This document shows positions 7,101-21,418 of a stretch of DNA of 34,847 bases, one piece after another (position 1 is the stretch's first letter; every line of letters begins with the position of its first letter). Made by a program: the position numbers and the translations under genes. The DNA is from a virus. The stretch lies in the IMG/VR virus record IMGVR_UViG_3300030333_003435, positions 1 to 34,847 of that record, one strand, 5' to 3'. Under the pieces are notes generated by a model, which ran no database searches, was not told the DNA's origin, and was given only the letters and a program-made list of their open reading frames with translations.

Positions 7101-9995
7101 ATGGGCGACGAGACTCGCCAGGGCTGGATGGGACTTAACAGCGACACCGTCAAGGCCAAGGCTATGCGGGATTTGTACAATGAGGTGATTGGCTGGCGCG
7201 GCAGGGAAGAGAGCAATCCCCTGTTTGGCACTTTGTTCACTGAGCGCGACAATCCAATAAAGAGTCGCCGCCTTGATCGTATTAACGAAATCATAGAGCT
7301 CCCCCACACGCCTGACTTTTTCATCAATCCATCTTTGCAACGCGAAAACTTTATGCCTGTGAAAGGCGCTGAGCAGTTACTGAAGCACAGCCGTGCTGGG
7401 CTCAAAGCTGGCGACCACTACATTGGAGTTGCTCCTCTAAGGCATCAAAGCATTGAAGACGTTAACAACAGAAAGCTCTTTGATAATGTCAAATACGAGA
7501 GACTTAAAACTAATGCAAAAAATGTTGCTGAAGTTTTAGGGCTAAGCATTGTGGAGGAACATGATGTATTCGGCGGCTGGAATGAAGAGGGTCGGCACTC
7601 CCGCGAGACAAGCTACAGAGTAAAAGTTAACAGTAAGGATGCGGACAAGATAGAAGCTTATGCTGCTCTTGTTGGTGCATTGGCCCCAGAGGTGCAAGAT
7701 GCTGTAATGGTGGTGAAGAAATCAAACGTCAAGGACTCAACTGGCGTTGAGATGTCTATTCCCGTCAGGTCTAAAGCTAAAGGCCAAGAGTTCAGCGAGA
7801 AACTGGCTGAGTTTGGTTTCCCAGGCTATTCTTATGACCCAAAAACTAAGAAATTCATACTTGCAATAGAACACGCACAAGCAGAGTCTCTTGAGGCGCT
7901 GCTGCAATTTGGCATTGATAACAAATTAATAAATGAAAAAAGAATTGAAACAGAACCAATCCAAGTCTCCTTCCCAGGGGGAGATAGTTATAAACAGACT
8001 TATCAAAAAATTCGGAGTCAAATTGAAAGGTACACAAAGCGGGGAGATGACCTCAATGTACTTCTCTCCGAAGCAGAGCGACAGATAGCAGACCGAGAGG
8101 TTAACGAAAAAGTTAAGGCTTTAGCCGCCGACACCCTTGCTCAATTGACTGAGCCTGTGGAGTCGGCGGTTCGCTTTTTAGAGGGTAGAGAACAAGCGCC
8201 GGATTTGGGCAAAGGCAGCAAGGTTCGCGGTGTTGGCAAACACTTTGATAAGCGAGCACTGGATATGGAGTATGGCGATGTCGCCTTAACTCCAGAAAAT
8301 AGAGAGAGGATGGTTGCAGCGCTGGCTTACGAAACAATTTTTCAGCTTTCACAAGATGGCAACGCGCTTGGCTGGTATGATCGGGCTGTGAAAAAAGCAA
8401 TGTCCATCATTCACAATATTCACCCTGAGTTGAAAACTGATGACAAGGCAGACTTAGTTTTTAAAGCCGTACTTGCAATCACCTCAAACGGCGAAACGGT
8501 TGAGAAGAATTTTCGCAACGCGCACAACGTCTACTCTCATTGGAAGGAACATGGTGAGGTTCCGCAAAAAGCAGAATACGGCACAGAGACTGAGGCTATT
8601 AACAAGTCTTTGATTAAGTTTGAGGAAATGCTGAATGACTTAGGAGCAGAAAAGACTCGCGAGTTTTTGAGTAAAAAGTTTTCTGTCGGTCAGCTAAAGA
8701 AGGATCACGGTTTTGAGATAAGCGGAGAGAACGTGCAAACGATGGTTCCAGGCGCTGCAATATTTGGCCCTAAGATCGGATCATTTTTTAATAACCTAAC
8801 AGGCGACTACTCCACCCTTACAATGGATCTGTGGTTCAGCCGCACAATGAACCGGATCATGGGTTCAATGGTTCGCATTGCCACCCCAGAGGAAAGAGCT
8901 AAGCGTTACGAGCGATTGCGGTCGGCTGTTGAGGACTACTGGGAGGAGTCAGGGCTTGGCAAAGAAGACACTCACAATGGCTACACAAAAGATCAGTTGA
9001 TAGCAGATGAAACTAAGCTGCATGACTTTGCGCTGAAGCAGCAAAAAGATTTTGCCAAGCGCTCTTTTAAGACTCCTAAAGGTAAGCCAAAGATGTCTGA
9101 ACTAGACAAAGCCAGCAACAACTACGGTAACACTCTTGAGGTGATGATGGATGCTCCGCGAACAGGCACAGAGCGCCAGTTTTTCCGGTCAGTTATCCAA
9201 GGGGTGCAGGACAGACTTGTTGAGCTAGGAATGCCCGTCATTGAAATAGCTGATATTCAAGCGCTGCTTTGGTACGGGGAGAAAGATTTGTTTGGAGCGT
9301 TTGACGCAGTGAATAAGCGCTCCGAGGGTATGGATTACACAGACGCATCCAGGTCTTTAGCCAGGGACTTAGGCGTGTCACCTATGAAGTTGCTGATGCC
9401 CACGCACGGGCCAATTGACGGGGTCAATATTCGCAACACAGAGACACGCTACGCAGACCTAGTTGTTGACGGTGCGAAGACGGTTGAGACTAGAGGAAGT
9501 GTAAAGGGGCTGGGCAAGCTTGTAGGGCAACGTGCGAGAGTCATAAGAACCGGCGAAGGCGATGCGGAAGTTATCGGTGAAGTTACTTTTGGAGAGCCCT
9601 TCACATACACAAGCGCAGATGCCTTTGACGCAGACTTCATGCGGCACAAGGTTGCCAAGGATGATCCATACTACGACCCAAGTGGCAGAAAGGTAGGGTT
9701 TCCTTTGCGCGATGCTGAGCGGTACGCAACTCCTTACCCTGCTCCCAAAAAGAAAGGCATCCAGACAACCAAAAACTTGGCCTTTCAAAGCCTCATGCCT
9801 AGCGACAGTTTTTACCCAACTGAAAAGAGCGGAGCGCTGGAAGTATTTCGTAATGAGCTAGGCTATAGGGTTACCCACACTGCGGACGGCAAATACCGTT
9901 TGTACGATCCAAAGGATGCATTGCTAGGTGTCGCCGGATCACGCAAACAGATTGGTCAGTTGTACCGTCGCAAGGTGGTCAACAGAAGGAACTGA
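4188..9995 (+). CDS. giant multidomain internal virion protein with zincin and ASCH-like domains
   Basis: At 1935 residues this is the largest gene. The N-terminus (about 1-35) has the Ile/Val-Glu-Phe-x-Asp-Ser-Ala-Thr-Asp-Ala-Glu-Ile pattern common at the start of phage virion proteins. Residues about 215-440 are a long Gly/Ala-rich, weakly hydrophobic region suited to membrane insertion. A zinc metallopeptidase signature HEIGH lies at residues 550-554, with Glu630 in an Arg-Ala-Glu-Ala-Trp context as a plausible third ligand (gluzincin type). Near the C-terminus (about 1745-1830) a Tyr-Ala-Asp-Leu-Val-Val-Asp-Gly-Ala-Lys-Thr-Val-Glu-x-Arg stretch looks like an ASCH/PUA-type domain. Its position after two other ejection-type genes suggests it enters the host with the DNA. 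The architecture resembles phage polyvalent proteins. No lysozyme or transglycosylase domain was recognised. Confidence 0.75.
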   Translation: MPKIVEVDGIGEIEFSDSATDAEILGFIQDKFGLSDDQLIQAAESPNNNYFERIGRDRALREYERYRQLKKDDTTSWGEAYDMGAQALGMMRDDAIAAYKELNKEDYSYGKLARSLFEGIVLRGTMDSVRAITPAILPSTWFGAEDTYEEYLESNGLEPSVEARANYLESLKGDFADFMYLRDWDTDRQKLREGKDTYIQRLGLDTYIGSDVLKATTEAGSYADPSLFAGAAAAPLKAGSKVATAASKTVGVAGSAGTLGGKSLKAVGAAPELAAGAAIGAVAGKEAGEAASKSVASGTLGATIAGGPTAPLTAFKAAGEGVATAGELVSAAAETIGKAPLPGGGVFEQIARGQKNAPLRVIAAASQALGGSTAARVAGASGKGLLAGGVTGAALGSIEALREKHFLETAVPGLMMGGAMGAVGGGGTQAFREAAGFEYKAQVKRNTQDWLAGKSDNEIELLRKRGLTEKDYDKLALIERVVAGVGGDDITFQYLNDAEFKALSDQSAEGIFMHQGVNGRPTVAINMEKATGGPVAREAGKPRAQRTIYHEIGHALDALDFAPEAKRQLNDTLFGRYTADGAEITKGVISDSMIDDIADQYGLSNIDLTGDDALDKMRKRDLVQKEIRAEAWANMLEGKSIRKLGRNGIVSRIIDGAVTRDADSRLNAFFQRMVPSERTGAEGLFTIGEKPFYNSPEMNKLLTSMFRAKRRTYQRLDLDVDQKRNVITQKDFTNPETRKALLKTFRDSDVFERNEEGQILNQQLQPISSNGGMPKFLTSRQKTQARKVRSEKIQEALMNAGEPPAMGRLGRSAFRFFTDPVARQYFRANGLGAYLSDSQMAALRALPKNVLTPSLLKKIETLNAAAKDGTGRQFAFMYNAALSDTGKYSSRLSNEYRQGIVLDFEITTAGNFNIRTLDTIALFNRVEKISKKRKNDDAFWAPWGGYDKAFGGEATFIEGFKKYLDNHRAHAMGDETRQGWMGLNSDTVKAKAMRDLYNEVIGWRGREESNPLFGTLFTERDNPIKSRRLDRINEIIELPHTPDFFINPSLQRENFMPVKGAEQLLKHSRAGLKAGDHYIGVAPLRHQSIEDVNNRKLFDNVKYERLKTNAKNVAEVLGLSIVEEHDVFGGWNEEGRHSRETSYRVKVNSKDADKIEAYAALVGALAPEVQDAVMVVKKSNVKDSTGVEMSIPVRSKAKGQEFSEKLAEFGFPGYSYDPKTKKFILAIEHAQAESLEALLQFGIDNKLINEKRIETEPIQVSFPGGDSYKQTYQKIRSQIERYTKRGDDLNVLLSEAERQIADREVNEKVKALAADTLAQLTEPVESAVRFLEGREQAPDLGKGSKVRGVGKHFDKRALDMEYGDVALTPENRERMVAALAYETIFQLSQDGNALGWYDRAVKKAMSIIHNIHPELKTDDKADLVFKAVLAITSNGETVEKNFRNAHNVYSHWKEHGEVPQKAEYGTETEAINKSLIKFEEMLNDLGAEKTREFLSKKFSVGQLKKDHGFEISGENVQTMVPGAAIFGPKIGSFFNNLTGDYSTLTMDLWFSRTMNRIMGSMVRIATPEERAKRYERLRSAVEDYWEESGLGKEDTHNGYTKDQLIADETKLHDFALKQQKDFAKRSFKTPKGKPKMSELDKASNNYGNTLEVMMDAPRTGTERQFFRSVIQGVQDRLVELGMPVIEIADIQALLWYGEKDLFGAFDAVNKRSEGMDYTDASRSLARDLGVSPMKLLMPTHGPIDGVNIRNTETRYADLVVDGAKTVETRGSVKGLGKLVGQRARVIRTGEGDAEVIGEVTFGEPFTYTSADAFDADFMRHKVAKDDPYYDPSGRKVGFPLRDAERYATPYPAPKKKGIQTTKNLAFQSLMPSDSFYPTEKSGALEVFRNELGYRVTHTADGKYRLYDPKDALLGVAGSRKQIGQLYRRKVVNRRN

Positions 9996-10377: not shown

Positions 10378-10384
10378 GTTGAAC

Positions 10385-10420
10385 TGCGTAGGTTTTCGCG
10401 TAGGTTTCGGCGTAGTTCTT
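10385..10420 (+). repeat. left attP arm: three tandem 12-bp integrase arm-type repeats
   Basis: Three consecutive 12-bp units share the core GCGTAGGTTT: they start at 10385, 10397 and 10409, the third being degenerate (GCGTAGTTCT). The same core recurs on the other side of the tRNA-like core at 10629-10661 in the same orientation. Paired sets of short direct repeats flanking a core are the arm sites bound by the N-terminal domain of lambda-type tyrosine integrases. Assignment as integrase arm sites is inference from position and symmetry. Confidence 0.7.
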
Positions 10421-10508
10421 TGACGGCGTCTTGCGGTTGTCTGCGGTTTGAGTGCATTGAAAATGTGGCCAGAACTTAGCAAGGTGCAAATTTCTTAGGA
10501 TAAACGTA

Positions 10509-10567
10509 GGTAGAGCCCCAGATTGTGATTCTGGTTGTTGCGGGTTCGAATCCCGTCGGTCACCCCA
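10509..10567 (+). other. attP: attP core: 3' 59 nt of a tRNA-His gene
   Basis: The segment matches the 3' three quarters of a bacterial tRNA-His: end of the D arm (GGTAGAGCCCC), anticodon stem CCAGA/TCTGG with loop TTGTGAT and anticodon GTG at 10525-10527, variable region, T arm with loop TTCGAAT, acceptor 3' strand and CCA end at 10567. The 5' acceptor strand and most of the D arm are absent: the upstream sequence does not pair with the acceptor 3' strand. A tRNA 3' fragment next to an integrase gene is the standard attP arrangement: on integration it would restore the host tRNA-His gene. The exact crossover within the block cannot be seen. Confidence 0.85.
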
Positions 10568-10623
10568 CCTTATTTCCTAAGCTTTTTTGCATTTTCAAGA
10601 TTCTTCCCCCTGCTCAAAAAGCG

Positions 10624-10661
10624 CTCTAGCGTAGGTTTTGCGTAGGTTTTTGAGTAGGTCT
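10624..10661 (+). repeat. right attP arm: three integrase arm-type repeats
   Basis: GCGTAGGTTTT at 10629, GCGTAGGTTTTT at 10640 and GAGTAGGTCT at 10652 repeat the left-arm unit with 11-12 bp spacing and the same orientation. The stretch 10624-10649 is also present, exactly and inverted, at 20468-20493 inside the candidate small terminase gene. Within attP it is best read as the P' arm. Confidence 0.7.
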
Positions 10662-10665
10662 ACCC

Positions 10666-10745
10666 TTGGGTTCCTTTTCCTATGACAAAAATAATTTTGG
10701 TGTCTGACACTTTTTTGTTGCTTTTGGAGCGCAGGTGTCTGACAC
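10666..10745 (+). promoter_or_regulatory. integrase-operon control region with two GTGTC-T-GACAC dyads
   Basis: Two exact copies of the perfect dyad GTGTCTGACAC lie at 10700-10710 and 10735-10745, centre to centre 35 bp, both with the same flanking GG on the left and T on the right. A weak sigma70-like promoter (TTGGGT at 10666, AATAAT at 10690, 18-bp spacer) would place the first dyad across the transcription start. The region lies between the right attP arm and the first gene of the integrase operon, so the dyads are likely operators controlling lysogeny genes. The promoter call is weak; the repeats are certain. Confidence 0.55.
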
Positions 10746-10778
10746 TCACCGCATCGGAGGCACTTAGGCCAAAGATAA

Positions 10779-11444
10779 ATGAAAAAGCATATGAAAAAAA
10801 TAAACTTCACTGAGCTAAAGCGCTTAGGAAAAGAAACAATAAGACTCTACGAATCTGAGTGGGGTTCTGAGCGGCAGATCAACAGAGAAACTGAACTACA
10901 TGATTTGCTTTACCACTATCTTCCCTGCAAGCCATTTGAAAATCTTATGTCTTACGGCGAAAAATCCACATTAGATGAGTGGGTTCTGGAAGGCTTGCGC
11001 TTGGCTGCATACGAAACTCTTAATCAATGGCGGCTAGATTATAATGAAGACCAGAACGGAAGCTACCTCGTCACTTATGAAGGCAAAGTGCCGGATGATG
11101 ATTGGATAGATGAAAGACCACAAATCTGTGCGGCTTTTGATCACTTGACTTGGGGGATGGATTTGAACCTTGAGCGCTCTAAAGAGGAGTCTCCAATTAG
11201 GTTTACAAAAGATGAGGTAAACCAATTGCACAACTGTTTGGATGTCTTTTCAACAAAGCAGCAATTTAAGGCGGTGATTACGCTTATTGAACAAGGCCCG
11301 TTAAAGGAGTGCTTTGATGATCAAGGTAATATTATTGACGATGAAAAACGTAAGTTCTGGCAGCAGTGTATTGGGAGTTGCCAGACATTGTCTTGTGATT
11401 CAGATCTTAAAACAATTTGGAAAAAATTAGATAAATTTATATGA
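10779..11444 (+). CDS. hypothetical acidic protein, first gene of the integrase operon
   Basis: The 221-residue product is acidic, rich in Glu, Asp, Trp and Leu and predicted mostly helical. No known motif is recognised. It may start at 10779 or at the in-frame ATG at 10791; neither has a strong ribosome binding site. It lies directly downstream of the paired GTGTCTGACAC dyads and its stop overlaps the next start (ATGA), forming a three-gene operon with the integrase. Position suggests a role in lysogeny, immunity or superinfection, but that is only inference. Confidence 0.7.
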   Translation: MKKHMKKINFTELKRLGKETIRLYESEWGSERQINRETELHDLLYHYLPCKPFENLMSYGEKSTLDEWVLEGLRLAAYETLNQWRLDYNEDQNGSYLVTYEGKVPDDDWIDERPQICAAFDHLTWGMDLNLERSKEESPIRFTKDEVNQLHNCLDVFSTKQQFKAVITLIEQGPLKECFDDQGNIIDDEKRKFWQQCIGSCQTLSCDSDLKTIWKKLDKFI

Positions 11445-11650
11445 GCGACCAGTTTAAACAAACCATCGGCAAGCTGACTCAAGTGGAGTTGGCCCTTCTC
11501 AAGCACAACCTAGCGCACCATTCGCCAGACGCAGAAAAGATTGCTTTGATAAACAGCGAGCTAAAGCGCCGCACTAAAGTTGGATCTTTTTGGCAGCGTC
11601 AAAAATACGAGCAGCAATTCGGTAAAAACTACAACGCATCGGTAATATGA
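11441..11650 (+). CDS. small basic hypothetical protein coupled to integrase
   Basis: This 69-residue protein is overlapped by four bases at both ends: its ATG sits in the stop of the upstream gene and its TGA overlaps the integrase start. The sequence is helical and basic (Lys, Arg, Gln rich in the C-terminal half). Its size and position next to an integrase would fit a recombination directionality factor or accessory DNA-binding protein, but no HTH is clear and the excisionase-like gene at 14442 is the better candidate. Family not recognised. Confidence 0.65.
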   Translation: MSDQFKQTIGKLTQVELALLKHNLAHHSPDAEKIALINSELKRRTKVGSFWQRQKYEQQFGKNYNASVI

Positions 11651-13077
11651 AAATTCCTAATATTAAAATAGATAAGGTTTGTAACAAGTACAAGCGCAAG
11701 CATCACCCTAACAGCGTGACTTGGAAGGAAAGCGATTGGGTAGCTCAAGCATGGGACGCTAGGCTTGGCGCTAAGGGCGCTCCTAAGAGATTTCAATATC
11801 CTGCGGCGCTTACGCATGAGGAAGTTGAAGAGCAGTCTGCAAATGATTTTGCAGCGCACTTTGGCAAAACTTTGCACACGGTTCAGCTTGAGAAAAAGAT
11901 CAAGGGTGAGCCACGCATTAGTGACCTTGTTGGGCTGTACCATGAAGTGTGTGCTCTCCTACCAAGCGCCAGTGTTCGCAAGGCTAATATTGCCGACTTA
12001 ATCCAGATGCTTACTCAGACCGGCTCGCCTAACCCTGAGCGCGAATACTTAAAGGTTTTAAGGTCATCATTGGTGGATTCATGGTTTGCCAAGCGAGTGA
12101 CGGAGCGCAGCGAAGCAAGTGGCGGTGATGTTAATGAGATTAACCGCGAGAAACGGACACTCAAATCCAAGTGGGACAATATTAAATCTCTTTTTAAAAC
12201 TAAAATGAGAATCGCCATGAAGGAGCGCGGTTTCAGCGAGGATCTTATTCGCCAGCTTAAAGATTTTCGCGAGGATGTTGATACGGCTGCAATCTCCGCG
12301 CCAATTGGTCAGGACGATTTTGTTCCCGTCTCTGATGAGTTAATTAAAAATACGATGGCTGAGTTCAAGGCTCTAAAGTACAAAGATCCAAATGCGTACA
12401 TTGTGTTCCTGCTCGGCATCGGCGCTGGACTGCGCTCAAAAGAAGCGATTTACGTTCGCTGGGAGGATCTTGGGCAAGGTTATGTCATGGCCCTGCCTCA
12501 CGGCGAGTACAACACCAAGGGTAAGCGGACTCGTAAGGCGCTGTGTCCGCAGTTCATTATTGATGAGATCCGCGAGTTTGAACACTTAGATAAGAGTGGT
12601 GAGTTCGCGCAGTACTGCGTGTCTCATAACACTCCCAAGCGCACCATTACCGTTGTGCGCGGAGCATATAAAGGGAAAGCGCCAAAGCAGAAAAAAGGCA
12701 AAGGTGTTGGCATGGGTGCAGTAGTTTCCGGCAAGTTTGTGAAAACGAACCGCAAGGCCGCAACATGGACGCAGGAAGTCGGAGGTAATCCTTGCACTAA
12801 GACTGAGAGAGGTGAGCAAAAAACCCGTCTTAGCGTACAAACTCGCGTTAATGCTTTATTAAAAAAACTTGGCTGGAACGAGGTGGGTCTGACAAGTTCC
12901 GGCAAAAAGTTTCACAAGTTGAGGGGTTGGAACGTGACTCAAGTAATTGAGAATGAGGGGCTCAAGGCTGGATCTGTCCATGCTGGGCATCGGTCTACCA
13001 AAACCACAAGCGCTTGGTATCACCTTCCTGCGGCTGAGCAGGACAAGGAATATCTTGTGAATAAGTTATGCAAATAA
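11647..13077 (+). CDS. int: tyrosine recombinase / phage integrase
   Basis: The 476-residue protein carries the tyrosine recombinase catalytic set: Arg263 in Gly-Ala-Gly-Leu-Arg-Ser-Lys-Glu-Ala, a likely Lys at 291-293 in the beta-hairpin, His423-x-x-Arg426, His448 in Ala-Gly-His-Arg-Ser and the nucleophile Tyr458. The N-terminal 220 residues would hold the arm-binding and core-binding domains. About 130 residues separate the Lys hairpin from the His-x-x-Arg box, longer than usual, with a Lys/Gly-rich insertion around 335-390. The protein would catalyse recombination between attP (1.1 kb upstream) and the host tRNA-His gene. The start overlaps the preceding stop (ATGA). Confidence 0.93.
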   Translation: MKIPNIKIDKVCNKYKRKHHPNSVTWKESDWVAQAWDARLGAKGAPKRFQYPAALTHEEVEEQSANDFAAHFGKTLHTVQLEKKIKGEPRISDLVGLYHEVCALLPSASVRKANIADLIQMLTQTGSPNPEREYLKVLRSSLVDSWFAKRVTERSEASGGDVNEINREKRTLKSKWDNIKSLFKTKMRIAMKERGFSEDLIRQLKDFREDVDTAAISAPIGQDDFVPVSDELIKNTMAEFKALKYKDPNAYIVFLLGIGAGLRSKEAIYVRWEDLGQGYVMALPHGEYNTKGKRTRKALCPQFIIDEIREFEHLDKSGEFAQYCVSHNTPKRTITVVRGAYKGKAPKQKKGKGVGMGAVVSGKFVKTNRKAATWTQEVGGNPCTKTERGEQKTRLSVQTRVNALLKKLGWNEVGLTSSGKKFHKLRGWNVTQVIENEGLKAGSVHAGHRSTKTTSAWYHLPAAEQDKEYLVNKLCK

Positions 13078-13136
13078 GTCTTGCACTTACCCTTAAATGA
13101 TTGCAATAAAACCCCTTCAGCCGACATAACGAGCCA

Positions 13137-13334
13137 GTGAGTTCACAACGCAAAGACGGAAAGAAGCTTGTCAGTTCCTACGTTTGGGAATCTGACAAGG
13201 AAAGGCTACAAGAGATTGCAGAAGAGCAAGGCGTAACTATGTCGGATCTTATAAAAGCAATGGTGACTGAGCTTGACAGCCTAAAGAAAGATGCAAAGGA
13301 ACAGATCTACAAATCTGCGAAAAATCTAGACTGA
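13137..13334 (+). CDS. ribbon-helix-helix DNA-binding protein, candidate repressor
   Basis: The 65-residue product begins with a GTG codon and has the layout of a CopG/Arc-type protein: a short basic beta strand (Lys-Leu-Val-Ser-Ser-Tyr-Val), helix A, a Gly-Val-Thr turn and helix B (Ser-Asp-Leu-Ile-Lys-Ala-Met). Such proteins bind DNA as dimers of dimers on short palindromes. It is the only small repressor-like gene between the integrase and the replication genes, making it a candidate binder of the GTGTCTGACAC dyads; this is inference. The Shine-Dalgarno sequence is weak, and an initiation site elsewhere is possible. Confidence 0.65.
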   Translation: MSSQRKDGKKLVSSYVWESDKERLQEIAEEQGVTMSDLIKAMVTELDSLKKDAKEQIYKSAKNLD

Positions 13335-13381
13335 GACAACCCATGTCCTACCGGAAATCTTAACCTATTTTTTTTTAAATA

Positions 13382-14080
13382 ATGAACGAAACCAAAAACG
13401 AAAAACAAGTTGAAGAAGTGCGGAATGAACAGCAAGTGACGCAAGGGTATTTGCTACACGCCATCTACGCGATGGTGAGAGAACTCAAGCAAACAAATAA
13501 AATCACAATTAGCAAACGAGGGCTCAGGATTCTATTTGCTATGGGATTTTTAATTGCTGGCCTTGATATTTGGACTCACATAAACCAATACAAAGAAAGT
13601 GCGCGAGAAAATATGCACAATGAAGCAAACCACACTATTTCCAACAATGTTTATCCAATTAATTTGAAACGATATGTTGGCGTTGCTACGGAAGCAGAGT
13701 GGCACAAGTATCTTTTAAATTCTTATCGGGCAAATGCGGATCAACCCATAAAAGCAATATTGAGTTTAGATGAAGTGGTTAAAATGAAATCAGTTGCGAA
13801 GCTAATAAAAGACAATGAGCGTGAAAAACTTGAAGCGAAAAACATTGAACTTGAATTGGCAGTTTCTCAGTCCAAATTAAATGCATTGCTGGCATGGTAC
13901 TGGGATGATCCAAAGTATTTGGAATCTGTGGATTATTCGCACTTAAACGATAAATGGGCTGAAGGGTTTAGCTTGGGCCTAAAAGAAGCGCCTAAAGTTA
14001 TGAGGCATTTATTTGATAGTCAGGATAAACTCACAAATTTAAATCATCAGAAAGATGGCAATGCGAAATCCCTTGAATAA
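13382..14080 (+). CDS. single-pass membrane protein, function unknown
   Basis: The 232-residue product has a charged N-terminal stretch (about 1-48, many Glu, Lys and Gln), one hydrophobic segment at about 48-66 (Leu-Arg-Ile-Leu-Phe-Ala-Met-Gly-Phe-Leu-Ile-Ala-Gly), and a long hydrophilic C-terminal domain with a helical Lys/Glu region (about 130-165). The gene and its flanks look more AT-rich than the structural genes. A membrane protein between the repressor-like gene and the replication genes could serve superinfection exclusion or lysogenic conversion, but no family was recognised. It follows a T-rich stretch directly before the ATG; no good ribosome binding site is visible. Confidence 0.65.
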   Translation: MNETKNEKQVEEVRNEQQVTQGYLLHAIYAMVRELKQTNKITISKRGLRILFAMGFLIAGLDIWTHINQYKESARENMHNEANHTISNNVYPINLKRYVGVATEAEWHKYLLNSYRANADQPIKAILSLDEVVKMKSVAKLIKDNEREKLEAKNIELELAVSQSKLNALLAWYWDDPKYLESVDYSHLNDKWAEGFSLGLKEAPKVMRHLFDSQDKLTNLNHQKDGNAKSLE

Positions 14081-14089
14081 CAAACATAC

Positions 14090-14134
14090 ATTTAACAATT
14101 TAATATTTGTTAAATTATAAAAGGTGTCTGACAC
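14090..14134 (+). promoter_or_regulatory. promoter with inverted repeat and GTGTC-T-GACAC dyad at the start site
   Basis: A 9-bp perfect inverted repeat (ATTTAACAA at 14090-14098 and TTGTTAAAT at 14107-14115, 8-bp loop) overlaps a sigma70-like promoter: TTAACA at 14092-14097, 18-bp spacer, TATAAA at 14116-14121. The dyad GTGTCTGACAC (14124-14134) follows within 3 bp of the -10 box, where a bound protein would block initiation. The GG of the dyad flank also forms the AAGGTG ribosome binding site of the gene at 14137. This is the likely start of the replication-region transcript. Confidence 0.55.
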
Positions 14135-14136
14135 TT

Positions 14137-14355
14137 ATGGCGATAACTAAGAAACGAATATACAAACACGTTGCTAAAGAAATGCTAGTCAGGAATGAAA
14201 ACAATTCTGATGCAATCGTAAGCGCTGTTACCAGTTACATTTTAGCTTTAAAAAAAGAAGGATGCATAATCCAACTTTGGTCAGCTAAAGATGCTGTAAG
14301 CCAAGTACGCAAGTACATGAAACTTTCAAAATCACAAGAGGTGTCTGACACCTAA
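14137..14355 (+). CDS. small hypothetical protein downstream of the dyad promoter
   Basis: The ATG at 14137 is preferred over the upstream TTG at 14107 because AAGGTG lies 10 bases upstream and because 14107 falls inside the promoter inverted repeat. The 72-residue product is basic at the N-terminus (Lys-Lys-Arg-Ile-Tyr-Lys-His) and helical, with no recognised motif. Its last codons (Val-Ser-Asp-Thr-stop) are read from another exact copy of the GTGTCTGACAC dyad. It opens the replication-region operon, so an early regulatory role is plausible but unproven. Confidence 0.6.
   Translation: MAITKKRIYKHVAKEMLVRNENNSDAIVSAVTSYILALKKEGCIIQLWSAKDAVSQVRKYMKLSKSQEVSDT
14341..14351 (+). repeat. GTGTC-T-GACAC dyad inside the end of a gene
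   Basis: This exact copy of the 11-bp dyad is preceded by GG and followed by C and encodes the last residues of the 72-residue protein. It lies 10 bp before the start of a small membrane-protein gene. Confidence 0.8.
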
Positions 14356-14361
14356 TATACT

Positions 14362-14445
14362 ATGAAACAAGAATCTATTGACTATTGGATCGCTGCATAT
14401 CTTGCAGGGTTTCTCATCATAGTTTTTATGCATATAATTTTATGA
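14362..14445 (+). CDS. 27-residue single-span membrane peptide
   Basis: Starting at ATG 14362, the frame encodes a 27-residue peptide with a polar N-terminus (Met-Lys-Gln-Glu-Ser-Ile-Asp) and one hydrophobic helix (Ile-Ala-Ala-Tyr-Leu-Ala-Gly-Phe-Leu-Ile-Ile-Val-Phe). Its TGA overlaps the ATG of the following HTH gene by four bases (ATGA), the coupling pattern used throughout this genome, which is the main evidence that it is real. The best ribosome binding site, GAGGTG within the dyad flank, is about 17 bases upstream, farther than ideal. Function unknown. Confidence 0.5.
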   Translation: MKQESIDYWIAAYLAGFLIIVFMHIIL

Positions 14446-14639
14446 GGAATCTCATAAACAAAAACAGGACTTGCGAGTACCTTGATATATCGGAGCGGAC
14501 TCTTGATGCTTTAATGAGAGAGCGCCGAATTCCATATGTCAAACTCAGCAAACGAATCATACGTTTTTCGCCAGACGGCTTGGATGAATGGCTGAAAAAC
14601 GAACAACTAAAACAACTCCAAGCATTAGATAAAAAGTAA
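14442..14639 (+). CDS. excisionase-family helix-turn-helix protein
   Basis: From the ATG at 14442 the product is 65 residues and matches the MerR-like winged-helix fold of the excisionase (HTH_17) family: Cys-Glu-Tyr-Leu-Asp-Ile-Ser-Glu-Arg-Thr-Leu-Asp as HTH, then Arg-Arg-Ile-Pro-Tyr-Val-Lys-Leu, then Arg-Phe-Ser-Pro-Asp-Gly-Leu-Asp-Glu-Trp-Leu. These small proteins bend DNA at attachment sites to direct excision, or act as transcription factors. The longer open frame from 14385 was rejected because this start is coupled to the upstream peptide gene. It may be the recombination directionality factor of the integrase at 11647, though it lies in the replication operon. Confidence 0.75.
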   Translation: MRNLINKNRTCEYLDISERTLDALMRERRIPYVKLSKRIIRFSPDGLDEWLKNEQLKQLQALDKK

Positions 14640-14640
14640 T

Positions 14641-15162
14641 ATGGAACTAGTAGTACCATCGGAAAAGGCGAACGGAAAAGATGCGTTTGAAATGTTAGAG
14701 GCAGGAACCCATGACGCTATGTGCATAGATGTCATCTACCCTGTCGTTACAAGATACCAGAATGAACCACCGAAAAATACGGTGGTTTTTGTTTACGAGG
14801 TAAACAAGAAGCGCACACTAAAGGACGGCGGCGGCGAAGATGAGTTTAATCATCATATATGGTCAAACAACTTCACGCTTACGTTGCATCCTAAAGGCAA
14901 GCTCAAGCCTATGTTAGAAATGTGGACGGGCGAGACGTTGAATGAGGGGTCAAAGACTAACTTAGAAGACTTCGTTGGTAAGCCAGCGAAGCTGACTGTG
15001 GTGCATAAGAATAAGGTCACTAAGCCTGGCGAAAAGAAGCTGGACATAGTCGCAGTCATGCCAAGCGACCTAGAGTTTGCAACGCAGGAGGGTTACGAGC
15101 GGAAGAACCCAGACGACATCGGATCTGCGGCAGCAGCGGCAGATAACAACGTCCCATTCTGA
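14641..15162 (+). CDS. ssDNA-binding-protein-like replication protein
   Basis: The 173-residue product has a beta-rich body and an acidic, flexible C-terminus that ends in Asp-Asp-Ile-Gly-Ser-Ala-Ala-Ala-Ala-Ala-Asp-Asn-Asn-Val-Pro-Phe. An acidic tail ending in Pro-Phe is the partner-recruiting hallmark of bacterial and phage SSB proteins. It is the first gene of the DNA-metabolism block, directly before an exonuclease and upstream of nuclease and primase-helicase genes. The call rests on the tail, size and context; the fold was not recognised from residues alone. The start follows the HTH stop by one base. Confidence 0.6.
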   Translation: MELVVPSEKANGKDAFEMLEAGTHDAMCIDVIYPVVTRYQNEPPKNTVVFVYEVNKKRTLKDGGGEDEFNHHIWSNNFTLTLHPKGKLKPMLEMWTGETLNEGSKTNLEDFVGKPAKLTVVHKNKVTKPGEKKLDIVAVMPSDLEFATQEGYERKNPDDIGSAAAAADNNVPF

Positions 15163-15163
15163 G

Positions 15164-15174
15164 GTGTCTGACAC
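15164..15174 (+). promoter_or_regulatory. GTGTC-T-GACAC dyad overlapping the exonuclease ribosome binding site
   Basis: An exact dyad copy one base before the exonuclease ATG at 15176. Its flanking bases form GAGGTG (15161-15166), 9 bases before the ATG, so the dyad and the ribosome binding site are one element. No promoter is visible immediately upstream, so a protein bound here could act as a roadblock, or the dyad RNA could form a small hairpin hiding the start. Confidence 0.7.
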
Positions 15175-15175
15175 T

Positions 15176-15862
15176 ATGAAGCGGTTAGGCATTAACGACA
15201 TAGACCAATTGGAGTTTGATCCTGTGGATCGCTCTCCAATTTTCTTTGATATTGAAACTGGGCCTTGCGACCAAGTGAACTTTGCCAAGGCTCTGATCCC
15301 AGAGTTCAAAGCACCTTCCAACTATACTGCCCCAGAAAAAATTGAGGCATATATAGCAAAGAAGGAGGACGAGTTTTGGGACAAGGCCGCGCTAGATCCT
15401 GTGACAGGCGAGATCTGCGCGTTTGGGTTTAGGTATCAAGGTCAGAACTATTACATAGACGAGGAAGGCCCAACGGTTGAGCAAGTGGTTTTGCATGGCA
15501 TTACCAACTTGGCAAGCAAGGCCGGACAGCGCACTTGGATAGGTCACAACATCCATGATTTTGATCTGCCTTTTATTGTGAGGCGTTTGTGGAAGTACGG
15601 CATGACTATTCCTGTGGGCTGGTACTCTGGTAAGTGGTGGAGTGAGTGGCTGGTGGACACTGGTAAAATGTGGGGGCTGGCTAAGTTTAAGGACATGATA
15701 GGACTTAACAGGCTCGCTCTATATCTGGGCCATGTCTCAGGCAAAGACGGCAAGTCAGGCAAGGATTTTCATAAGCTTGTGCTGAAAGACCCAGATGCCG
15801 CTTACGAATATCTCGCCAACGACTTGGAGCTTACCGAGTACGTTTACAACCGAATGAAGTAA
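15176..15862 (+). CDS. DEDDy 3'-5' exonuclease (PolB-exonuclease-like)
   Basis: The 228-residue product shows the three exonuclease motifs of the DnaQ/PolB superfamily: Exo I Phe-Phe-Asp25-Ile-Glu27-Thr-Gly, Exo II Gly-His-Asn-Ile-His-Asp128-Phe-Asp130, and Exo III Tyr212-Leu-Ala-Asn-Asp216, the DEDDy variant. It matches the family of stand-alone predicted exonucleases related to the proofreading domain of family B polymerases; no polymerase domain follows. It would remove 3' nucleotides from ssDNA. ATG 15176 is chosen because GAGGTG lies 9 bases upstream; the open frame extends to 15077 but overlaps the SSB-like gene. Confidence 0.85.
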   Translation: MKRLGINDIDQLEFDPVDRSPIFFDIETGPCDQVNFAKALIPEFKAPSNYTAPEKIEAYIAKKEDEFWDKAALDPVTGEICAFGFRYQGQNYYIDEEGPTVEQVVLHGITNLASKAGQRTWIGHNIHDFDLPFIVRRLWKYGMTIPVGWYSGKWWSEWLVDTGKMWGLAKFKDMIGLNRLALYLGHVSGKDGKSGKDFHKLVLKDPDAAYEYLANDLELTEYVYNRMK

Positions 15863-16077
15863 TGGAGGAGAGCACAAGCGGACATCCTAGCTCTATTCCT
15901 AATATGCAGGAAATGGGTGATCAAATCACTTACAAGACAAGACTTAATGTACTTACTGGTAAGTGGAGCCCTGACCCTAAAGACAGGGAAATGATTCTCG
16001 CATTTCGGAAGCAGCGCAAATCAGCTAAAGCCTTTTTAAAGACTTGGAAAAGAGGAGCGTGGAATGGCGGTAAATAG
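15862..16077 (+). CDS. small basic hypothetical protein
   Basis: The 71-residue product starts at an ATG that shares a base with the exonuclease stop (TAATG). The C-terminal half is strongly basic (Lys-Gln-Arg-Lys-Ser-Ala-Lys, Lys-Thr-Trp-Lys-Arg) and could bind nucleic acid. It overlaps the next gene by 14 bases. No family recognised; context between exonuclease and nuclease suggests a DNA-metabolism accessory role. Confidence 0.65.
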   Translation: MEESTSGHPSSIPNMQEMGDQITYKTRLNVLTGKWSPDPKDREMILAFRKQRKSAKAFLKTWKRGAWNGGK

Positions 16078-16408
16078 TAAGCGGAAGGGCAAGGTCAATG
16101 AATTGGCTTGGGCTCATATATTAAGAGATGCTGGATTCAAAGATGCCAGAAGAGGCCAGCAACACAGGGGCTCACCTGAGTCGCCTGACGTTATATGTAG
16201 TGAGCTTGCTTTGTTTCATTTTGAAGTGAAAAGCGGCAAGCAAATAAACATTTGGCGAGCGCTGGAACAAGCCGAACGCGACAAAGGCCAGGAGGAACTG
16301 TCTGTAGTCGCCGCTCATAAGGACAGGGAGCGCTGGGTTGTTTCAATGTACGCTGATGAGTGGTTGAAAGTAATAAAGTCTATGGGGTGTCTGTCACCTC
16401 ATGGTTAA
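16064..16408 (+). CDS. PD-(D/E)XK nuclease, Holliday-junction-resolvase-like
   Basis: The 114-residue product has the compact resolvase-like PD-(D/E)XK core: a basic N-terminus with Glu13 in Val-Asn-Glu-Leu-Ala, then Ser-Pro-Asp42-Val-Ile and Glu54-Val-Lys56 followed by a Ser-Gly. Such phage enzymes cleave branched DNA during recombination or before packaging. ATG 16064 has AGAGGAG 7 bases upstream. It sits in the replication block after the exonuclease. The stop lies just after a degenerate dyad copy (16387-16397). Confidence 0.75.
   Translation: MAVNSKRKGKVNELAWAHILRDAGFKDARRGQQHRGSPESPDVICSELALFHFEVKSGKQINIWRALEQAERDKGQEELSVVAAHKDRERWVVSMYADEWLKVIKSMGCLSPHG
16387..16397 (+). repeat. degenerate GTGTC-T-GTCAC copy of the dyad
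   Basis: The element differs from the exact dyad at one base (GTGTCTGTCAC) and keeps the GG flank. It lies in the last codons of the resolvase-like gene and is followed after two bases by an ATG (16400) that opens a nine-codon frame (Met-Val-Lys-Gly-Cys-Gly-Leu-Lys-Glu). It may be a decayed site or a weak operator. Confidence 0.5.
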
Positions 16409-16417
16409 GGGTTGTGG

Positions 16418-16496
16418 CTTGAAGGAATAGAGCCGTAGGAGATCTACGGACAGGGTTCTATGCACCCTCATTGAACACCTTCAAGTCACTTTTTTT
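16418..16496 (+). ncRNA. structured intergenic RNA, possible attenuator or terminator
   Basis: The 99-bp gap between two nuclease genes folds on paper into a junction. An outer 8-bp stem (CTTGAAGG 16418-16425 with CCTTCAAG 16478-16485) encloses a 6-bp hairpin (CCGTAG 16433-16438, CTACGG 16444-16449, loop GAGAT) and a 5-bp hairpin (AGGGT 16452-16456, ACCCT 16464-16468). An alternative long arm pairs ATAGAGCC (16427-16434) with GGTTCTAT (16454-16461). Seven T residues follow at 16490-16496, then the AAGGAGG ribosome binding site of the next gene. Terminator, attenuator or processed small RNA are all possible. Confidence 0.5.
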
Positions 16497-16507
16497 AAGG
16501 AGGCAAT

Positions 16508-16966
16508 ATGGATAATTATAGAGTGAATTTTGAGCACCGACTGAGTGCTAGTGAGGCGGCTAAACTCGCTGTAGTTAAGTATATCAACAGGCAAGGTATG
16601 CCATGCACTGTTAACCCAAGTGTCATGTATCCCGCAGGAGCAGATCCTGAGAAGTACAAGGATGGCGGCGACTTGTTCATGCACTTTCGCACCGAGGTGA
16701 AGCACCGCCCTAAGTTGGATTTTACAAGCGCTGAAACGTACCCGTTTGACACGGTACTTATATGCAGTCAGAGCTCATTTGATAGTCAAGTTGTGCAGCC
16801 TAAATATTACTTTATCTGCAATGGGCCAATGACTCACGCCGCGCTTGTTGACGTTAAGAAGACCAAAGACAAGTGGCTTGTATTAGACCAGCCTGACTTT
16901 GAGAGGAACTACACAACGAAGACTTACGCAATTCCAAAGCAGGATGCCATATGGATTCAGCTTTAA
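16508..16966 (+). CDS. PD-(D/E)XK nuclease-like protein
   Basis: The 152-residue product contains Gly-Gly-Asp55-Leu followed by Arg-Thr-Glu63-Val-Lys65-His-Arg, the D...ExK core of PD-(D/E)XK nucleases, with an N-terminal helix containing Glu16 in Ser-Ala-Ser-Glu-Ala-Ala. The C-terminal half is beta-rich and not recognised. It has the best ribosome binding site in the region (AAGGAGG, 16497-16503) and follows the structured RNA, so its expression may be controlled separately. It is the second of two PD-(D/E)XK genes in this block; substrate unknown. Confidence 0.65.
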   Translation: MDNYRVNFEHRLSASEAAKLAVVKYINRQGMPCTVNPSVMYPAGADPEKYKDGGDLFMHFRTEVKHRPKLDFTSAETYPFDTVLICSQSSFDSQVVQPKYYFICNGPMTHAALVDVKKTKDKWLVLDQPDFERNYTTKTYAIPKQDAIWIQL

Positions 16967-17289
16967 TATATGACGATCCTGCTGACCGCCTATTAGCGGC
17001 AATCATTGGGCGAGCTATTAAGGACTACTGTGTAGCTAGGATGAGGAACATTCTTAGTGCTGACGGGGTCATTAACGATAAGTTATTAGCAAAGCACAAT
17101 GTTGGATTTGTTTTAAGCGCAGACGTTATGCAGGGCTGTTCACGGCTTGAGATTCGGACGGCATATATCTTCATGCACAGTGGGTTGAATGTGATGCTGG
17201 AAGCATTAGCGCCTAACCAAGACCCTTCAATGATAAGGGACAGCGCCGAGAAAGTTATAACAGGAGAGAAAGTAATCGTATGGCAGTAG
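16951..17289 (+). CDS. hypothetical helical protein
   Basis: The 112-residue product overlaps the upstream nuclease by 16 bases and the downstream gene by 10 bases. It is predicted largely helical with short hydrophobic stretches (Leu-Leu-Ala-Ala-Ile-Ile-Gly) but no clear membrane span. No motif is recognised. The overlapping arrangement in the early operon supports it as a real gene. Confidence 0.65.
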   Translation: MDSALIYDDPADRLLAAIIGRAIKDYCVARMRNILSADGVINDKLLAKHNVGFVLSADVMQGCSRLEIRTAYIFMHSGLNVMLEALAPNQDPSMIRDSAEKVITGEKVIVWQ

Positions 17290-17480
17290 AAAAGAAACCT
17301 ACAGATCTAATATTCACAGGCGACGGGTTTGTTGAGCGCCGAACGCTAGATGTTAAGCTAAGAAAAGAGCTTACAAAGAAGCAAAAGCGCAACAAGAAAG
17401 ACAAAGCCAAGTACATGGAGCATTCCCTGGCTAACGCCCAACGCAAACCTGACAGAGCGAGAAAGTGGTATGGCAAATGA
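17280..17480 (+). CDS. small highly basic protein
   Basis: The 66-residue product is very rich in Lys and Arg from residue 20 onward (Lys-Leu-Arg-Lys-Glu-Leu-Thr-Lys-Lys-Gln-Lys-Arg). It overlaps both neighbours. A nucleic-acid-binding accessory of the replication genes is plausible from charge and location, but no fold is recognised. The ATG at 17280 has GGAGAG about 11 bases upstream. Confidence 0.6.
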   Translation: MAVEKKPTDLIFTGDGFVERRTLDVKLRKELTKKQKRNKKDKAKYMEHSLANAQRKPDRARKWYGK

Positions 17481-17689
17481 GAGTCTCCCAGTTTCTAAAC
17501 TATAGGCGCGGCCCAGATGTCATACAGTCTGAATGCGGCACTGGTGGATTGAACAGTAAGTACCAAGAGGAACATGAGGTGTTGTTGCCTTTTAAAAGAA
17601 TACGCCACTTGCATAGCACCTATGTGAGGGATCGCTCGTACTACGACAACATTGGCTTAATAATGAAAACTTTAGGATATGGAAATTGA
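17477..17689 (+). CDS. small hypothetical protein before primase-helicase
   Basis: The ATG at 17477 overlaps the previous TGA (ATGA) and is preferred to an upstream in-frame start at 17465. The 70-residue product is rich in Arg and Tyr and has an Arg-Ile-Arg-His-Leu-His stretch. It overlaps the primase-helicase start by 11 bases, suggesting coupled translation. Function unknown. Confidence 0.6.
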   Translation: MRVSQFLNYRRGPDVIQSECGTGGLNSKYQEEHEVLLPFKRIRHLHSTYVRDRSYYDNIGLIMKTLGYGN

Positions 17690-19334
17690 TGAAATGAAAG
17701 ACAGGCTACCGCTCCCCCAACTCATGGAGCGGTTAGGTTATGGGGAAGAGTTTCAGCGGCGCTCATGTAGGTCGCCGTTTAGGGAGGAACAGCGAGCAAG
17801 CTTTGGGATCTTCCCGCATCAGAATAAATGGTTCTGGAAAGATCATGGAGTAGGAGAGTCAGGCGATGAGATAAACTTTATTATGAAAGCGCGAGGCTGT
17901 GACCAGAAACAAGCCATTGAGTTTTATAAGGATCTTATCGGACACCGTGAGCAGACGGCTGCTTTAAAGCCAAGCAAACTCAGCGACCAGGCGCTTGATG
18001 AGATAGCTCTGATACGAGGCTACAAGCGCACAACGGTTGAGCTCCTAAATAACAGAGGGCTACTAGTCAATGTTGACGGCAACATAGCTATACCAGTGAA
18101 GTCTGGACGCGAGCTTATCGGATACCATAAGCGCTGCACTGATGGGCGCTGGATGTACAGCCCAAAGGGAACCACTGCCCTACCTTTGGTCATTGAGCCA
18201 AGCGGACAAGCAGCCAGCACAATCGCATTTGAATCGCAATGGGATGCGTTCGCCTATTTGGATATCGCTGGATGGCCTGAGCACCAGCGCATCATCGTTA
18301 CCCGTGGAGCAGCCAATGCTAAGCGCCTGGCCAAGCGCACGGTAGGCCCAGTGATACTATACCTACAGAATGACGAGGCTGGTGAGAAATGGGCCAAGGC
18401 AGCAACTGAAGTCATTGACGATGTCCGAATCTGTGTCGCTCGCCCCCCTGCCCCGCACAAGGATCTGAACGATTGGCTGAAGGACGGCTGTACCTTGCAG
18501 GATCTCCTTCGCACTGTCGGTGATGCTCAGGTTGTGAAGGCTGGCCCAGAGAAGGACATCATGTCCTGGGATGACCTGGATGACACCGGCAGTGACCCTG
18601 ACAATTTAATCGGGAATCGCTGGCAGTGCCGCGCTGGTTCATGCCTATGGGTTGGCCCGTCCGGCGTAGGCAAGTCCAGCCTGACACTGCAAGCAGCGCT
18701 CACTTGGGCCGCTGGCCATGATCTGTTTGGGATCAAGCCAGAGCGCCCACTCAAGAGCCTCATTATTCAAGCCGAGAATGACGCAGGAGACGTTAAGGAG
18801 GTTCTCCAGGGTGTCCGCATGGGTTTGCCTCAATTAAGCGCTCTATGGCCCGATCTGAAGCAAAGAGTGAGCATTGTGTCCAAGGCCGATGTCAGTGGCG
18901 CTGCGTTCCTCAACTATGCCAGCAATATGTGCAAGGCGGTACAGCCGGATCTGCTCTGGATAGACAACATCCAGGCTTACATGGACGGCGATGTTTGCTC
19001 CCAGCAACAAGTGAGCGCCTTCCTCAATCCCCTGCGAGCCCTAGCGCTTGATACCGGCGTAGCCGTGCAGCTTATCCATCACACAGGAAAGGCCATTACG
19101 GGCTCCAGAACAGCCCTAGATTGGTCTTACATAGGCAATGGGTCTAGTCAGTTAACCAACTGGGCCAGAGCCGTCATGGTGCTAATGCCAGCCGAGGATG
19201 AGGAGTATGGCAATTTCAACCTTAGAGCAGCCAAGAGAGGCTCACGGGCTGGCCTATGCCATTCTGGAGGGCTCCCGTCTGATTGCGTTAAAATTAGGCA
19301 TGGACAGCGCGGGATCTGTTGGGAGGAGAACTAA
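17679..19334 (+). CDS. primase-helicase fusion (TOPRIM plus RepA-like ATPase)
   Basis: The 551-residue protein combines an N-terminal CHC2-like region (about 25-70; only one candidate Cys of the Zn site is obvious), a TOPRIM-like region (about 130-265) with Glu185 in Phe-Glu-Ser-Gln-Trp-Asp and an Asn-Asp-Glu-Ala-Gly at 231-235, and a RecA/RepA-type ATPase with Walker A GPSGVGKS (326-333), Walker B Asp-Leu-Leu-Trp-Ile-Asp (424-429) and a His-His-Thr-Gly-Lys (467-471) typical of RepA-like helicases. It would unwind and prime the phage origin. The ATP-binding motifs are complete; loss of zinc ligands hints that the primase half may be altered. Confidence 0.9.
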   Translation: MEIDEMKDRLPLPQLMERLGYGEEFQRRSCRSPFREEQRASFGIFPHQNKWFWKDHGVGESGDEINFIMKARGCDQKQAIEFYKDLIGHREQTAALKPSKLSDQALDEIALIRGYKRTTVELLNNRGLLVNVDGNIAIPVKSGRELIGYHKRCTDGRWMYSPKGTTALPLVIEPSGQAASTIAFESQWDAFAYLDIAGWPEHQRIIVTRGAANAKRLAKRTVGPVILYLQNDEAGEKWAKAATEVIDDVRICVARPPAPHKDLNDWLKDGCTLQDLLRTVGDAQVVKAGPEKDIMSWDDLDDTGSDPDNLIGNRWQCRAGSCLWVGPSGVGKSSLTLQAALTWAAGHDLFGIKPERPLKSLIIQAENDAGDVKEVLQGVRMGLPQLSALWPDLKQRVSIVSKADVSGAAFLNYASNMCKAVQPDLLWIDNIQAYMDGDVCSQQQVSAFLNPLRALALDTGVAVQLIHHTGKAITGSRTALDWSYIGNGSSQLTNWARAVMVLMPAEDEEYGNFNLRAAKRGSRAGLCHSGGLPSDCVKIRHGQRGICWEEN

Positions 19335-21108: not shown

Positions 21109-21418
21109 CCAAGTTCTGGCAGCTTTACAGACTGAACTTGGCTTGGCGACGGCGCAGGGAAAGAGAGCATTGGCACTCGCAATTGAATGCGTCAGATTGC
21201 TTGACACAAAGCAGCAAGACTACGGCAGCAAGAACATCACCTACAGCGGTGAACTCGGCGTTGCCGTTCGCTTGCAGGACAAGGTATGCAGATTGAGGCA
21301 TATGCTTGAGAGCGGCAACACGCCTCAGCATGAGGCGATGGTGGACACCTACCAGGATATAGCTAATTACGGGCTTATTGGGCAGATGCTATTAGATGGC
21401 AGTTGGGTGTGTGGTTAG
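21056..21418 (+). CDS. Nmad1 / DUF1599-like nucleotide-modification-associated protein
   Basis: The ATG at 21056 has GAGGT 8 bases upstream and is preferred to the TTG at 21041. The 120-residue product shows the family pattern: Leu-Asp-Thr-Lys-Gln-Gln-Asp-Tyr-Gly-Ser-Lys-Asn, then Arg-Leu-Gln-Asp-Lys-Val-x-Arg-Leu and Asp-Thr-Tyr-Gln-Asp-Ile-Ala-Asn-Tyr. DUF1599/Nmad1 proteins are linked in phages to modified nucleotides or dNTP-pool enzymes, with acidic residues that may bind metal. It directly precedes and overlaps the cytosine methyltransferase by 23 bases, so the two probably act together on phage DNA. Confidence 0.7.
   Translation: METTTTSEKSPDNGERYDQVLAALQTELGLATAQGKRALALAIECVRLLDTKQQDYGSKNITYSGELGVAVRLQDKVCRLRHMLESGNTPQHEAMVDTYQDIANYGLIGQMLLDGSWVCG

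Follow-up and report, generated by a model that had tools for sequence, protein, structure and literature searches.

In this study we examined a short palindromic repeat in a 34,847-nt stretch of viral DNA (IMG/VR record IMGVR_UViG_3300030333_003435, positions 1 to 34,847), referred to below as the window, which represents a temperate phage. The repeat, GTGTCTGACAC, is an 11-letter perfect dyad that occurs in five exact copies on the lysogeny and replication side of the phage (Table 1). From comparison of sequences, we consider it probable (about 0.68) that the dyads are operators, dispersed over the phage genome, for one of the phage's own DNA-binding proteins. Most likely, they serve a phage regulator both as operators and as sites resembling the stoperators of mycobacteriophages; we infer the binding, the identity of the binder, the repression and the transcriptional roadblock alike.

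The dyad set in the window and in a close relative

An earlier description made from the letters of this DNA (the sequence-only reading) listed five exact copies in a single orientation with GG to their left. In the record we could confirm these positions, the orientation (all on the + strand) and the GG preceding each copy; there is no sixth exact copy in the full 35,475-base viral record. The core is perfectly symmetric, with asymmetry confined to the flanks. The degenerate site reported at 16387 is also present (GTGTCTGTCAC, one mismatch), and another one-mismatch copy, missed at that time, lies on the - strand at 6831 within a 1935-aa open reading frame (ORF). As a chance control, we shuffled the window 200 times, preserving its dinucleotides, and counted identical 5-1-5 and 4-3-4 dyads. 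None of the shuffles contained any identical dyad of these types in five copies (0/200), the maximum being three, and GTGTN3ACAC likewise occurred no more than three times (n = 200). The copy numbers of the window (5) and of two related phages, L130 (6) and L132 (4), are each above chance. The dyad set is thus real and not a chance product. The non-coding share of the region 10378-19334 is 7.6%, and it includes four of the five dyads; the remaining one ends 1 nt short of a stop codon. A literature search for the dyad sequence itself returned no relevant paper.

L130 is the closest relative, with an exonuclease 99% identical to that of the window, and it has all five window dyads at syntenic places. 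Its sixth dyad is located immediately left of the core of the phage attachment site (attP), where it replaces window sequence of equal length. The region 13078-14440 has strongly diverged between the two phages, the flanks of dyad 14124 being 46% (left, 100 nt) and 74% (right) identical and those of dyad 14341 62% and 70%. The longest exact runs in this region are nevertheless 19 nt at 14338 and 14 nt at 14123, both at dyads, together with 14 nt at 14152. Moreover, dyad 14341 belongs to the coding sequence at the end of ORF 14137 in the window, yet lies beyond the stop codon of this ORF in L130. This argues that it is the DNA element and not the peptide that has been conserved.

Distant relatives with exchanged dyad centres

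The most telling comparison is with L132, a distant syntenic relative, with the integrase 40%, the exonuclease 57% and the primase 77% identical. L132 does not contain GTGTCTGACAC, but a repeat search revealed a set of its own: GTGTTTTACAC at 2075 and 2105 and the reverse complement GTGTAAAACAC at 6088 and 6419, in other words GTGT-TTT-ACAC or its reverse complement. Shuffles of L132 have at most two copies of any dyad versus the four observed (0/200 reach four). The copies at 2075 and 2105 align with the window tandem pair upstream of the integrase operon, in a conserved block that starts with TATGACAAAAA. The copy at 6088 is found at the 3' end of the ORF 14137 homologue, just like window dyad 14341, and the one at 6419 between the HTH_17 gene and the gene for a protein resembling single-stranded DNA-binding protein (SSB). 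The SSB-like and exonuclease genes of L132 overlap, and no dyad is present there.

Other relatives extend this picture. In L260 (primase 70% identical), the 3' end of the RusA-like gene carries a perfect GGTGTTAAACACC (GGTGT-TAA-ACACC), and L259 has one GGTGTAAAACACC. At the place corresponding to 16387, L256 shows the same degenerate form and L130 a further decayed one (GTGTTTGTCAC). There is no GTGTN3ACAC in the exonuclease relatives L244-L254, most of which are remote (30-40%) and of which L244 lacks the 5' region. We also found no recurrent dyad within the short flanks of weakly related primase loci (G553 family), and no match in a nucleotide search of a deposited phage collection. The common element is, on this comparison, GGTGT-N3-ACAC(C/T), retained as a set with a lineage-specific centre. 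When the dyad is looked for at syntenic positions in relatives, as had been proposed earlier, L130 keeps all of them, whereas L132 lacks the sequence and has its own dyad at partly equivalent places.

Proposed regulatory role

The earlier suggestion of a phage-specific operator set is well supported by the synteny in L130, the equivalent set in L132, the L260 dyad where the RusA-like gene ends and the lack of dispersal in probable hosts (see below). We read the layout as that of operators because a tandem pair stands before the lysogeny operon, one dyad falls on the expected start site of a promoter and further copies occupy gene boundaries. Two dyads had been described as upstream of the integrase operon and one as located at a likely transcription start. 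Both statements hold, in that the pair precedes ORF 10779, the integrase being the third gene, and dyad 14124 is located behind TTAACA-18-TATAAA. If this reading is correct, the tandem pair at 10700/10735 would control a lysogeny operon comprising ORF 10779, ORF 11441, the integrase and a ribbon-helix-helix (RHH) protein, and dyad 14124 would sit on the transcription start of the replication-operon promoter. Dyads 14341 and 15164 and the decayed one at 16387 would mark gene boundaries of the replication operon, where the bound protein may block elongating RNA polymerase in a stoperator-like manner. The RHH protein encoded at 13137 would repress its own operon together with the replication genes, thereby holding lysogeny.

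Several observations weigh against this scheme. A recognisable promoter is present at one dyad only. L132 has no counterparts of 14124 and 15164 and carries one copy at a new place, and the orientation of the dyads, uniform in the window and L130, is mixed in L132. The 5' region is covered by three genomes only, two of which are closely related in parts. The covariation between the RHH protein and the dyad, described below, rests on essentially one contrast. Finally, the AlphaFold model of the RHH monomer has a helical N-terminus, the predicted strand residues being strongly conserved; however, we regard this model as uninformative, since it was built from an alignment of three sequences. As to promoters, a search with relaxed rules gave 2 sites at ≥10/12 within 9 kb, and a generic scan counted no more promoters than in shuffles.

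Candidate binding proteins

Among the phage proteins, the one encoded at 13137 is probably the likeliest binder. Its gene belongs to the operon that follows the tandem pair and is located identically in the window, L130 and L132, the three phages for which 5' sequence is available; the L132 homologue scores 19.1 bits against RHH_1, just under the cutoff of 20.5. In the first 18 codons, the window and L130, which share the dyad, differ by 10 synonymous and 0 replacement changes. In L132, which has a different dyad, the RHH arm residues 3, 7, 13 and 15 differ from those of the window. Such covariation of the arm with the dyad is suggestive of the RHH protein as the binder. There is also a resemblance in layout to matS (GTGAC-N3-GTCAC), which is bound by the RHH protein MatP; we take the resemblance as a lead only. 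A search of the deposited phage collection with the RHH protein gave no match.

It is rather unlikely that the operator set is bound instead by the HTH_17 protein encoded at 14442, the integrase or the 72-aa product of ORF 14137. The HTH_17 gene is conserved in L132 and L244, but RHH dimers fit short palindromes better than monomeric HTH_17 proteins do. As for the integrase, dyads 1-2 are only 130-180 bp from the attP core, one L130 dyad is directly beside it, and MrpR, the master repressor of phage SP-beta, is itself a recombinase-fold protein. However, dyads 3-5 are at 3.5-4.6 kb from attP, too distant for integrase arm or Xis sites. ORF 14137 is bracketed by dyads in both the window and L130. 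Against its candidacy, it does not match a DNA-binding fold. Its product is conserved in the three phages, with a compact helical fold predicted confidently (predicted local distance difference test score, pLDDT, of 91), and a fold search with its model produced no significant structural match.

Attachment site and probable host

A tRNA-His fragment that is the likely attP core finds its best match in Verrucomicrobiota tRNA-His genes (98% over 59-61 nt). Because of this match, Verrucomicrobiota are probably the host phylum. Two Planctomycetota genomes match the fragment at 77-83%, and two other single genomes do not match it. A gammaproteobacterial host was rejected, the tRNA-His match being at best 92% among 369 Gammaproteobacteria. 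When 388 Verrucomicrobiota genomes were searched with the integrase, no comparable prophage was found.

The attP region of the window retains a long 3' part of tRNA-His. In the corresponding region of L130 (1780-1830), phage sequence containing the sixth dyad stands, base for base, in place of the 5' part of tRNA-His. L132 has the 3' part of a tRNA-Lys at the equivalent place; its best matches (88-90%) do not point to any one host. With tRNA-Lys in L132 versus tRNA-His in the window, the two phages would therefore integrate at different tRNA genes while having the same layout.

Alternative explanations for the dyads

We consider it very unlikely that the dyads are an RNA element, either a hairpin or a means of Shine-Dalgarno-linked translational control. 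All copies are in the sense strand, and in RNA GGUGU could pair with ACACC around a 3-nt loop. The AGGTG of dyad 15164 is located 11-12 nt ahead of the exonuclease ATG at 15176, so that the ribosome binding site proposed there by the sequence-only reading is possible, albeit distant. Yet the arms are unchanged in all relatives, without compensatory swaps, and only the unpaired centre varies. Dyads 10700 and 10735 are distant from a start codon, and 14341 is inside coding sequence. In L132, dyad 6088 has a separate AAAGGAG downstream, and the dyad-free SSB/exonuclease junction also speaks against this role. The idea of an operator and Shine-Dalgarno sequence in one consequently appears weak: only 15164 and, loosely, 14124 are suitably placed, and the L132 evidence is contrary. 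The Shine-Dalgarno overlap probably arose incidentally, from sites being placed in gaps of 13 nt.

Even less probable is that the dyads are an acquired dispersed repeat of the repetitive extragenic palindrome (REP/REPIN) type that hopped in from a many-copy host. A mobile motif was nonetheless a sensible alternative to raise, because the core recurs as a REP-like repeat in bacteria that are only distantly related. The same core is present in about 369 copies in Bordetella genomosp. 2, 41 in Thalassomonas and 55 in a 1.3-Mb gammaproteobacterial metagenome-assembled genome. In the Bordetella genome (L290), inverted core pairs surround a Y1 transposase gene, and the phage copies, for their part, are chiefly intergenic. 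Against such an origin, GGTGTCTGACAC does not exceed two copies per genome in the 388 Verrucomicrobiota genomes, approximately the count obtained with the reversed control pattern, and the 11-mer has 0-5 copies in the 8 genomes with the best tRNA-His matches. The dyads of the phage do not form inverted pairs, their places are kept in L130 despite the divergence of the flanks, and L132 has a different dyad at equivalent places. Of the viral contigs listed with AGGTGTCTGACACT, L130 only has more than one copy. The mobile-repeat alternative thus fails the host-dispersal test set by the sequence-only reading and appears largely refuted, the genomes searched being those of the likely host phylum.

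Compared with the REP/REPIN repeats and their RAYT transposases (PMC3733652), the phage dyads are alike in being short, mostly intergenic palindromes with a core identical to that in Bordetella. They are unlike them in lacking inverted pairs, in their conserved positions and exchanged centres and in not being dispersed among genomes of the probable host phylum. Annotation by motif only could fall into a trap here, because what is probably an operator of a phage has its core in common with a REP-like repeat found in unrelated bacteria. REP-like sequences of Bordetellae have been mentioned before (PMC3733652), and the Bordetella core copies are often inverted pairs 17-18 or ~51 bp apart. In L290, near the Y1_Tnp gene, and in G001, G002 and G004, a high-copy REP/REPIN-like repeat with inverted pairs (AGGTGTCAGACACC..GGTGTCTGACACCT) has GTGTCTGACAC as its core; no Y1 transposase was detected in the gammaproteobacterial assembly or Thalassomonas.

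The least credible alternative is that the dyads are host-regulator sites or a replication or partition element. Dyads 3-5 are within the replication gene block, which may favour it. However, candidate host genomes contain the dyad no more often than chance predicts, which would be unexpected for the site of a host regulator, and its centre changes between related phages. Nor does a tandem pair ahead of an integrase operon have the layout of an origin.

Comparison with known systems

The proposed operator set is of a known type. The SPBRE of SP-beta is a repeated element at several intergenic sites that was noticed in the sequence and later shown to represent MrpR operators (PMC10516654). Both elements are short and repeated within one phage; the dyads exceed chance in number, occupy promoter or gene-boundary positions and recur in related phages. 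However, SPBRE is a 15-bp, promoter-located element with a recombinase-fold binder, whereas here we have an 11-13 bp palindrome, several copies at gene boundaries within an operon and a candidate binder. Cluster A mycobacteriophages (L5, Bxb1) have stoperators, sites oriented with transcription in the narrow gaps between genes, at which elongation is halted and which differ from one immunity group to another (PMC6550527, PMC9283540). The dyads resemble them in pointing one way relative to transcription (so in the window and in L130), in occupying short intergenic spaces or gene ends and in having lineage-specific variants. Stoperators differ in being asymmetric 13-mers, 20-30 per genome, bound by a helix-turn-helix (HTH) repressor monomer, as opposed to 5-6 symmetric sites whose orientation is mixed in L132. 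No HTH repressor of the stoperator type was found in this phage. MobC of RA3 (PMC4175270) and plasmid CopG proteins are similar in that a palindromic operator precedes the operon encoding a small RHH protein, but they act mostly at one promoter, while the phage sites are spread over two operons.

More tentatively, one might speculate that a tiny RHH repressor runs the immunity of Verrucomicrobiota phages in a stoperator-like manner, with a 13-bp dyad used both as promoter operator and as gene-boundary roadblock and with the 3-bp centre of the dyad and the DNA-contacting strand of the protein co-diverging into separate immunity groups. RHH-run stoperators with diverging immunity groups would be a moderately novel extension of the known type. 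If true, this would provide an immunity system readable from sequence for little-studied temperate marine phages, with hosts probably in Verrucomicrobiota. The dyad centre (CTG, TTT/AAA or TAA) would then track RHH residues 13 and 15 and define which lysogens exclude which phages.

Gene content around the dyads

Table 1. Positions of the dyads and of neighbouring features in the window
Feature	Position	Strand	Remarks
tRNA-His fragment, likely attP core	10500..10567	+	just before integrase operon
Dyad 1, GTGTCTGACAC	10700..10710	+	first of tandem pair upstream of integrase operon; L130 1981; L132 GTGTTTTACAC 2075 in same aligned block
Dyad 2	10735..10745	+	second of tandem pair, 35 bp apart; L130 2016; L132 2105 (30 bp apart)
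221-aa ORF, no family	10779..11444	+	first gene of operon, directly behind tandem dyads; absent from L130
Tyrosine integrase	11647..13077	+	third gene of operon behind dyads 1-2
RHH protein, 65 aa, candidate dyad binder	13137..13334	+	RHH_1 profile 23.5 bits, cutoff 20.5
Sigma-70-like promoter TTAACA-18-TATAAA	14092..14121	+	predicted start falls in dyad 3
Dyad 3	14124..14134	+	upstream of ORF 14137; covers expected transcription start
72-aa ORF	14137..14355	+	bracketed by dyads 3 and 4
Dyad 4	14341..14351	+	forms final codons of ORF 14137-14355 (VSDT-stop); precedes transmembrane peptide and HTH_17 genes
HTH_17 (AlpA/excisionase-like) protein, second candidate binder	14442..14639	+	36.5 bits, cutoff 27
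SSB-like gene, replication operon	14641..15162	+	name inferred; phrog_862, a family of unknown function
Dyad 5	15164..15174	+	fills 13-nt gap between SSB-like and exonuclease genes; L130 5655; no dyad at this junction in L132
3'-5' exonuclease gene	15176..15862	+	ATG 15176 set by alignment with L132
Degenerate dyad GTGTCTGTCAC, one mismatch	16387..16397	+	3' end of RusA-like ORF

As a temperate phage, the window encodes terminase, capsid, scaffold-like and virion proteins. The lysogeny and replication side encodes the integrase, the RHH and HTH_17 proteins, the exonuclease, a RusA-like resolvase and a primase-helicase. In L132, the slot of ORF 10779 holds other ORFs, that is, variable cargo at the head of the integrase operon. 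A C5 cytosine DNA methylase gene (21396-22253) adjoins the terminase, and in the late region a single ORF, the one of 1935 aa, occupies 4188-9995.

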